Positions 5,100-13,797 of a DNA stretch of 60,821 nt are shown piece by piece. A program made the position numbers and the translations under genes. The stretch spans positions 1-60,821 of the forward strand of contig JAFZKA010000003.1 in assembly GCA_017551925.1 (NCBI GenBank). The letters run 5' to 3'. Position 1 is the stretch's first letter. Every line of letters starts with the position of its first letter. The DNA comes from Bacteroidaceae bacterium (GTDB lineage: Bacteria > Bacteroidota > Bacteroidia > Bacteroidales > Bacteroidaceae). Under the pieces are notes generated by a model. The model was not told the origin of the DNA, did not search any database, and was given only the letters and a program-made list of their open reading frames with translations.

Positions 5100-5151
5100 T
5101 TTAATAATACGAAGAATACCAAACTTTTTTCAACAGAACTTCTTTGCCTCC

Positions 5152-5341
5152 GCCGAACCATTAGACGTGAGACCAGAACCTTCGGGCTACTCCGGGCCCC
5201 TACAACCCCTAAACGGCGAACTTCCCACTTTTAATCGCCTGCGGCGCTTAACGTGGCGCGAACAAGCGCCGTTTTTAACGGGGTTTCCAAGGCCCTACGC
5301 TTAACGCCCTACGCTGATGGTCTCCCATCTAACGGTTCGGC
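5152..5341. repeat. 190-bp hairpin element, copy A1
   Basis: The element is bounded by 24-bp inverted repeats (5152-5175 and 5318-5341, 21 of 24 positions pairing) starting GCCGAACC. It is non-coding and shows about three-quarters identity by eye to the element at 13323-13512, which has exactly the same length. Shared blocks include TTTTAATCGCCT, GGCGCTTAACG and GCTTAACGCCCTACGCTG. I do not recognise a named family. Confidence 0.8.
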
Positions 5342-5421
5342 TACTGCAAACGGCAACAGTAGTGAATCGGGCGGCCATGGTTCTTGAGACTATATCCTTC
5401 AAGTTTTTGCTCGGGTCGCAA
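5342..5421. other. Spacer between hairpin elements A1 and A2
   Basis: The spacer contains a small stem CTACTG/CAGTAG (5341-5362). A block around 5385-5408, GAGACTATATCC, resembles 13769-13785 in the second locus. No gene is visible. Confidence 0.5.
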
Positions 5422-5647
5422 GCCTTCAGCGGAAATCCGGCTGGGCTATGGTTTTTCCAAGCATTAGCGGAGGGCGTTAAGCGGAAAGCCCTGGAAATGC
5501 CGGGTAAGACATCACTTGTTTGACGACGAATAGACACCGAAGGTGGCTATGATGGAGGAGTTTGATGTTAAGGCATTGGAGGGGCTTGGAGTAGCCCGGA
5601 GGTGCTGATTGGAAAAATTATAGCCCAGTCGGAGTTTTGCTGAAGGC
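5422..5647. repeat. Hairpin element, copy A2, inverted relative to A1
   Basis: The outer arms 5422-5460 and 5609-5647 pair along about 39 positions (GCCTTCAGC/GCTGAAGGC at the outer ends). The inside, read on the minus strand, matches the interior of the 13323-13512 element more closely than it matches A1, for example CAAACAAGTGATGTCTT and CATTTCCAGGGCTTT. The stem sequence differs from the other copies but pairing is kept. It ends 11 bp from the hemW stop codon. Confidence 0.75.
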
Positions 5648-13244: not shown

Positions 13245-13322
13245 ATGTGAATTATTCTTAAAAACCAAACAAAATCCGTTTTTTAACACTTTGGGAGGGA
13301 ATTTTCCTCTTTTAGGGGCACC

Positions 13323-13512
13323 GCCGGACCATCAGATAGAAGACCAGAACCTCCGGGCTACTCCAAGCCCCTACAATGCCTAAACATCAAACTCCTCCCT
13401 TTTAATCGCCTACGGCGCTTAACGGTCGTCAAACAAGTGATGTCTTTGCCGGCATTTCCAGGGCTTTACGCTTAACGCCCTACGCTGATGGTCTCCTATC
13501 TGATGGTCCGGC
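13323..13512. repeat. 190-bp hairpin element, copy B1
   Basis: It is bounded by 24-bp inverted repeats at 13323-13346 and 13489-13512, 23 of 24 paired, beginning GCCGGACCATCAGATAG. It has the same length and orientation as copy A1, and its interior resembles both A1 and A2. No gene is visible. It lies between the ECF sigma promoters and the fmt stop codon. Confidence 0.82.
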
Positions 13513-13522
13513 TCACTGCAGA

Positions 13523-13797
13523 GAGGAAAATTGGAGGGTATGGTCGTTCGCTTGCGATTTGCAGAAGCAGAACTATCAGGTTGGGGAGTATCAGCAACAC
13601 GGCGTATAGCGCCAGACCTTGGGAGGATCCCGTTAAAAACGGCACTGTCCGAGGAACGTTCGACCCCGTAGGGGGCGATAAGGACGAGTTTGCCGTTTAG
13701 GGTCCGGAAAGGTATGGCGTAGCCGTGGAGCGTTGACTCCCCAAACTGATAGTTCTGCGTTGCCTCGGAGACTATACCCTCCAATTTTCCGGGGGTT
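13523..13797. repeat. Second long imperfect hairpin module (B2) next to fmt
   Basis: Arms at about 13523-13619 and 13709-13797 pair in blocks: GGAAAATTGGAGGGTAT with ATACCCTCCAATTTTCC, and AACTATCAGGTTGGGGAGT with ACTCCCCAAACTGATAGTT. The sequence differs from the 190-bp core, except that its right end resembles 5385-5411. It ends 11 bp from the fmt stop codon. A minus-strand frame is open through it but starts out of frame inside fmt, so I do not call a gene. Confidence 0.75.

Follow-up and report, generated by a model that had tools for sequence, protein, structure and literature searches.

A dispersed family of fold-conserved, rod-shaped elements in Bacteroidota that probably codes for RNA

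The window, a stretch of 60,821 nucleotides from a Bacteroidaceae bacterium, carries four copies of a rod-shaped hairpin element. They belong to a fold-conserved family, and it is close to certain that its copies share one shape while differing in sequence. The family probably codes for RNA. Our best reading is that they are rod-shaped RNA elements, dispersed in Bacteroidota, which move non-autonomously and have been amplified in this genome. As a whole, the explanation as a non-autonomous mobile element that is a rod RNA of about 200 nt is one that we hold with moderate confidence.

The four copies form two head-to-head pairs, both of which lie in gaps between minus-strand open reading frames (ORFs). 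Copy A1 (5150–5348, minus strand) scores 183.2 bits with a covariance model termed R1 and 151.2 bits with a second model, R2; its likely RNA sense is the minus strand. Copy A2 (5432–5632, plus strand) is separated from A1 by 88 bases and scores 169.1 bits with R1 (5436–5631) and 140.2 bits with R2 (5432–5632). The other pair consists of B1 (13321–13520, minus strand; 202.6 bits with R1 and 181 bits with R2) and B2 (13560–13760, plus strand; 185.1 and 162.7 bits), 40 bases apart. R2 returns only these four matches in the window at E values up to 1. An earlier note on this sequence described three copies. A1, A2, and B1 are real, and the fourth, B2, was overlooked. Over 193 nt, A1 and B1 share 80 % identity; inverted A2 matches B1 at 86 % over 146 nt.

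The arms of the basal stem, P1, are complementary at 21 of 24 positions in A1 (5152–5175 with 5318–5341) and at 23 of 24 in B1 (13323–13346 with 13489–13512), as the note had claimed. For A2, the 24-bp arm pairing at 5422–5647 is 20/24 and not 21/24. Only one in 20,000 random 190-base windows of the same sequence reached 21/24. By eye, P1 of B2 has 22 of 23 positions paired (5′ arm 13567–13589, 3′ arm 13736–13758). Outer arms specific to the A2 locus (5422–5430 pairing with 5639–5647) were also seen by eye, as was an outer inverted repeat of a type that we call P0, which flanks B2 with two mutually pairing halves (left 13525–13545, right 13770–13790) and occurs at other copies too.

Pfam assigns elongation factor G domains and a radical SAM protein to the surroundings of the A pair, and a sigma-70-type factor and a formyltransferase to those of the B pair. 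Between A1 and A2, the stretch 5368–5400 (GGGCGGCCATGGTTCTTGAGACTATATCC) is similar to one end of the type II hairpin described below. Elsewhere in the window, an inverted repeat at 400–482 has 40-nt arms that are 93 % complementary and a REP-like GGGACGGTTCC motif. Palindromes like it lie directly beside several rod copies (for example at L127, L147, and L368).

The conservation of the fold was evaluated on copies collected from genomes of the genus. In all, 64 copies were aligned, matches shorter than 60 query bases having been dropped beforehand. A MAFFT alignment built without structure kept 56 of 65 trimmed copies; near-duplicates (L059, L086, and L087) and copies that are interrupted or irregular at their ends (L050, L051, L077, L078, L090, and L102) were omitted. 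RNAalifold found 56 pairs in this alignment, 43 of them with compensatory change, and a slightly edited structure shows changes on both sides in 45 of 56 pairs. The number of double-change cells is 547, compared to 164 (sd 12) in shuffled controls and 60–159 in slid controls. Of 3117 cells, 92.8 % are paired, compared to 75.8 % after shuffling and 34–48 % after sliding. The covariation by which a structured non-coding RNA is recognized is therefore present beyond both kinds of control. In the alignment used to train R2, every one of the 56 pairs shows changes on both sides, and the paired share of cells is 90.4 % (54.1 % when shuffled); this alignment, however, was itself fitted to the structure.

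P1 is a helix of 23 pairs within the rod of about 200 nt, and several of its columns contain all four Watson–Crick types. Column pair 17–215, for example, is CG in 26, AU in 19, UA in 7, and GC in 2 of the 56 copies. Orthologous copies in different species carry compensated P1 differences (L079 and L082 are one case); in others (L196 and L093), some P1 changes give wobbles or go uncompensated. The paired changes on both arms that the earlier note had seen in a few positions thus hold generally across 56 copies. Its proposal of a conserved fold, in RNA or in single-stranded DNA, is borne out by many copies with strongly covarying pairs.

Conservation also extends to bases that do not pair. The stretches GGCGUUAAGCG, GUUAAGAA, UUUGACGA, GGAGGAGUU, and GGAGUAG recur as conserved unpaired elements. 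Column pair 116–129 is a mismatch, G.A in 30 copies, A.G in 23, and something else in 3. Since copies exchange P4 blocks, this swap may represent few events. These unpaired positions bear on the origin of the covariation. The earlier note had named gene conversion between the arms as a possible source. Taken furthest, such an explanation would make the rod a non-functional imperfect palindrome that is kept paired by templated correction from arm to arm and spread by gene conversion, the fold itself being under no selection. Arm-to-arm copying is seen at one copy, the second at L187 (2094–2297), whose outer arm is perfect where copies of the same site type have mismatches. Orthologous copies (L072/L096 and L065/L095) have equal P1 stems and quite different P4 blocks, as if their cores had been swapped by gene conversion. 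However, arm-to-arm correction would convert loops and mismatches into pairs. Neither the internal-loop modules, which remain unpaired in distant members as well as across copies, nor the exchange of G.A for A.G is explained by it. Arm-to-arm copying was thus rejected as the sole cause, and we regard an unselected palindrome as highly improbable.

On the preferred reading, each copy would encode a roughly 200-nt RNA, read from the complement of the strand in which the earlier note wrote A1 and B1. This RNA is predicted to fold into one unbranched rod in the order P1, L1, P2, L2, P3, L3, P4, and a short apical loop. L1 would consist of GCGUUAAGCGNAG opposite GGAGUAG, L2 of GUUAAG opposite UUUA, and L3 of UUUGACGA opposite GGAGGAGUU, with many G.A mismatches. 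The stems accept very different sequences provided that they pair, and conservation sits in the loop modules, which may serve a protein or RNA partner as points of contact. The rod is presumed to be transcribed and to behave as a small non-autonomous mobile element, recognized in trans through its folded shape. Recognition by shape is suggested because the arm sequences near the ends are not conserved. The element has multiplied to tens of copies in the genus, with core blocks seemingly exchanged by gene conversion.

In distant members of the family, L1, L2, and L3 are kept while the stem sequences are unrelated, as judged by eye on 36 rods. A wider proposal would be a phylum-wide class of mobile RNAs coded by shape, in which stems hold next to no sequence information and are spacers that set the distances of three non-canonical loop modules. 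The rods of such a class would be recognized and copied by shape through a trans-acting factor distinct from both Y1 transposases and reverse transcriptases, and would join with other palindromes to form nested hairpins. We consider this proposal rather doubtful.

We consider it reasonably likely that the selected molecule is RNA rather than single-stranded DNA. The RNA sense is likely the reverse complement of A1 and B1 as the note wrote them. In 64 of 65 copies, this strand has the more stable fold. The dinucleotide folding z-scores of the two strands are equal (−7.2 and −7.4, n=65), so the gap in stability reflects composition. RNAalifold consensus energies were −53.2 for the strand of the earlier note and −40.7 for the opposite strand in the first alignment, and −57.8 for the opposite strand and −50.2 for that of the note in the 56-copy alignment. 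Fold energy was rejected as proof of the strand, since the z-scores are equal and the consensus energy of the first alignment favors the other strand.

The asymmetry of wobbles was also rejected as proof, since the result shifts with the choice of pairs. The ratio of G.T to A.C is 146:50 in the RNA-sense structure and 74:92 with pairs picked by folding the opposite strand. In the 42 pairs common to both foldings it is 70:36 (38:14 with 23 representatives), and in pairs that are at least 85 % Watson–Crick it is 31:32.

Distant members lend further support through the sequence that follows the rod. Over the next 35 nt, 21 of 40 distant rods have a run of at least five T; in the mirror test, which looks for A on the other side, the count is 3 of 40. 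The 40 rods include close relatives, so the 21 are not independent events. The other controls gave 12 of 40 (A after) and 4 of 40 (T before). These one-sided T-runs fit transcription. Type I copies show no asymmetry of 3′ U-runs (21 versus 19 of 138), and A-runs follow the element in 65 of 138, fitting their P0 arm. A candidate promoter was noticed by eye upstream, with TTTTTG and, about 20 nt on, ATTTG. The −7 box of Bacteroidota contains TA, which the candidate lacks.

The family is concentrated in one genus. A BLASTN search with B1 returned 16 matches from the genome of origin. Of 41 genomes searched, 19 matched; they belong to the genus of the genome of origin, which contributed 25 genomes, and the 16 genomes from other families gave no match. 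With R1, the genome of origin has 50 matches. From the list of 49 longest, which excludes a 42-base match, 46 span at least 189 bases, and one of these 46 long copies carries an insert. Matches at the ends of contigs C72 and C115 may be one copy counted twice; the assembly has 127 contigs and is rated 97 % complete. The earlier note had held that finding only its three copies would count against it, and the genome contains tens. Across the genus, R1 matches 29 of 37 genomes with 0 to 50 matches per genome, the genome of origin having the most copies. It matches 9 of 151 genomes in the family, 7 of them from the same genus, and 8 of 393 in the order.

R2 was built from 18 rows that include the distant members found in the order. 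Its matches there are weaker and fall in 19 of 393 genomes, a count that includes the genome of origin and the training genomes. In a sample of the phylum, 7 of 395 genomes have such weaker matches (E values 1e-9 to 2e-5): the genome of origin, two from the same order, two from other orders of the class, and two from other classes. A 20-base exact pattern matched 118 stretches of named genomes; each of the 80 matches listed carries the title Bacteroidales, Bacteroidaceae, or Prevotellaceae bacterium, often with mention of a ruminant. Phages and plasmids gave no match in a BLASTN search for distant matches to B1, and viral contigs gave none to one exact gapped pattern. In 400 kb of a one-contig genome (G057), R2 returned only three rods, which were already known. 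A regular expression recovered one of the three there and found none in shuffled sequence.

A small hairpin stands just before many of the distant rods, and a hairpin of the TTTTTTGGTTACTTTT...AAAAGTAAC type follows. The ORFs beside distant rods share no obvious common theme by eye. Some distant rods form head-to-head pairs (L389, L406, and, weakly, L142) and others same-strand pairs (L385 and L387). In a crude ORF call, the orientation of ORFs around copies is unbiased (19/14/13/12 of the 58 copies, from 64, that are flanked on both sides).

This distribution weighs on a simpler view, that the rods are a family of housekeeping small RNA genes inherited vertically and never mobile. Several copies are indeed orthologous between species. 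However, 0 to 50 matches per genome within one genus, and the sporadic occurrence in the order (19 of 393 genomes), are at odds with it, and we give it very little credence.

We judge the element likely to be mobile. Thirty upstream regions of queA, of 330 bases each, were surveyed from 37 genomes with a queA match (in G052 only a paralogue-like one). The gene was identified by Pfam as Queuosine_synth, and the preceding gene is comF-like by eye, with no Pfam match at 1e-8. A rod lies upstream of queA in 7 of the 30 regions by eye (G000, G005, G008, G011, G020, G021, and G051). The same gap is empty in G019, and in G022, G049, and G010 it holds a different hairpin that resembles type II. The element is thus present or absent at one gap between species. 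Inserts of about 40–80 nt were seen inside rods at L102, at L151, and in the queA-upstream gap of G008 (L333).

Pairwise comparison of 45 copies from the genome of origin gave 804 homologies, of which 529 start 1–15 bases before the 5′ end. The 3′ side is less sharp: 277 end at most 5 bases from the end, 331 end inside, and 132 end at +15 to +34. The P0 inverted repeat (GAACTTTTTGGGGTATC and its inverse) flanks part of the copies. Sites of P0 at up to 2 mismatches number 43, compared to 6 for the reversed control. P0 also encloses type II hairpins (GGAAACCATGGCCGCCCGTGGGCTTGTGAAC...GGGAGGGATAGCGCGAAGCGCGTAGTTTC) and occurs as a solo stem. The type II hairpins at L368–L371 (contigs C2, C4, C8, and C49 of G000) lie inside the same P0 repeats and match neither R1, at E values up to 1, nor R2.

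P0 could be read as the ends of a MITE of an ordinary DDE transposon. The excess of P0 sites over the control, the enclosure of an unrelated hairpin, the solo stem, and the 132 homologies that end in the P0 zone would all suit such an element. However, among the copies listed, many have no P0 or have other outer arms, including the one in the queA-upstream gap of G000, and no transposon with P0 ends was noticed. The rods have no conserved terminal inverted repeats of the kind that define a MITE, since P1 arms vary and P0 is present at only part of the copies. A DDE-type MITE therefore appears improbable to us.

An enzyme partner was sought with Pfam models. The Y1 transposase (PF01797) has no match in the genome of origin, which is rated 97 % complete, and is present in 23 of 37 genomes of the genus. 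The reverse transcriptase (PF00078, RVT_1) has no match in the genome of origin, where the 127 contigs make a missed gene possible, and is present in 7 of 37 in the genus. A RAYT as the present-day partner in the genome of origin was rejected for want of a Y1 match, as was SINE-like retro-mobilization there for want of a reverse-transcriptase match. The transposase partner that the earlier note had named as counting against its proposal was not encountered in that genome in the form of either model.

The Y1 result also bears on the main alternative to RNA, in which the rod is a folded recombinogenic strand of DNA moved by an enzyme of the HUH/Y1 or integron-integrase kind and has no functional RNA. 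Like the rods, structure-recognized DNA sites combine conserved mismatches with freely varying stems, and DNA, too, forms G.T and G.A mismatches. The gaps that are occupied in one species and empty in another, and the REP-like GGGACGGTTCC palindromes that abut several copies, would also be expected of such an element. However, the genome of origin, the richest in copies within the genus, gave no Y1 match, and the one-sided T-runs of the distant members suit transcription. A purely DNA-level element seems to us rather unlikely, and an RNA element remains the preferred reading.

The earlier note knew of no named family that fits, and Rfam 15 agrees: rods have no match when the window is scanned at gathering thresholds, at 5 loci with E values up to 5, or at 10 loci with distant rods, for which E values up to 2 were allowed. 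The proposals of the note, to collect copies, test covariation, and search Rfam, thus led to tens of copies, covariation above controls, and no Rfam match. The only Rfam matches stand beside rods. BTnc201 (RF04177) reaches 21.8 bits (gathering 105) next to L091, and Flavo-1 (RF01705) reaches 61.1 bits (gathering 42) at L399 1156–1247, about 250 nt from a distant rod. Both are structured RNAs of Bacteroidota, as we propose for the rods, but neither model matches a rod. Among the papers listed in a literature search, none deals with the rod element; subscription journals were mostly outside its scope, so this absence is unproven.

Several known systems are similar in part. REP/BIME elements with RAYT are described as dispersed, often intergenic palindromes in tens to thousands of copies, mostly head-to-head (PMC3733652). 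The same paper gives REP stems of 5–13 bp with a GTAG or CGTC tag, and takes G-T pairing as a sign of transcription (PMC3733652). The rods are likewise dispersed, palindromic, and found in head-to-head pairs. In contrast to the short tagged stem of a REP, the rod is about 200 nt long and has three conserved loop modules, and its genome of origin has no Y1 match.

ERIC, NEMIS/Correia, BOX, and RUP are imperfect palindromes of about 100–200 bp that are intergenic, in some cases transcribed, and have conserved terminal inverted repeats. They differ from the rods, whose arms vary and whose conserved parts are the internal loops. Another Bacteroidales repeat is the MITE of Porphyromonas gingivalis, presumably the one named BrickBuilt. 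It is a non-autonomous element described as holding a minisatellite (PMC4596501). The rod is likewise a putative non-autonomous Bacteroidales repeat, and by description the minisatellite sets the MITE apart.

The attC sites of integrons keep their structure while the stem sequence varies, as the rods do. They have RYYYAAC and GTTRRRY at their two ends and form cassette arrays. Membership of the rods in this group was rejected by anatomy, since similar letters lie inside the rod and in another order, and the copies are dispersed.

If the rod acts as RNA or as folded DNA, it would be a prominent structured element of these Bacteroidales, with strong covariation, up to about 46 long copies per genome, and no entry in Rfam 15. 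Its freely varying stems would make it a good system for studying how recognition of an element by shape works. It also offers a system for the joint action of compensatory change, arm-to-arm copying, and gene conversion on one palindrome. Since matches range from 0 to 50 across the genus, a partner gene can be sought by comparison of these genomes.
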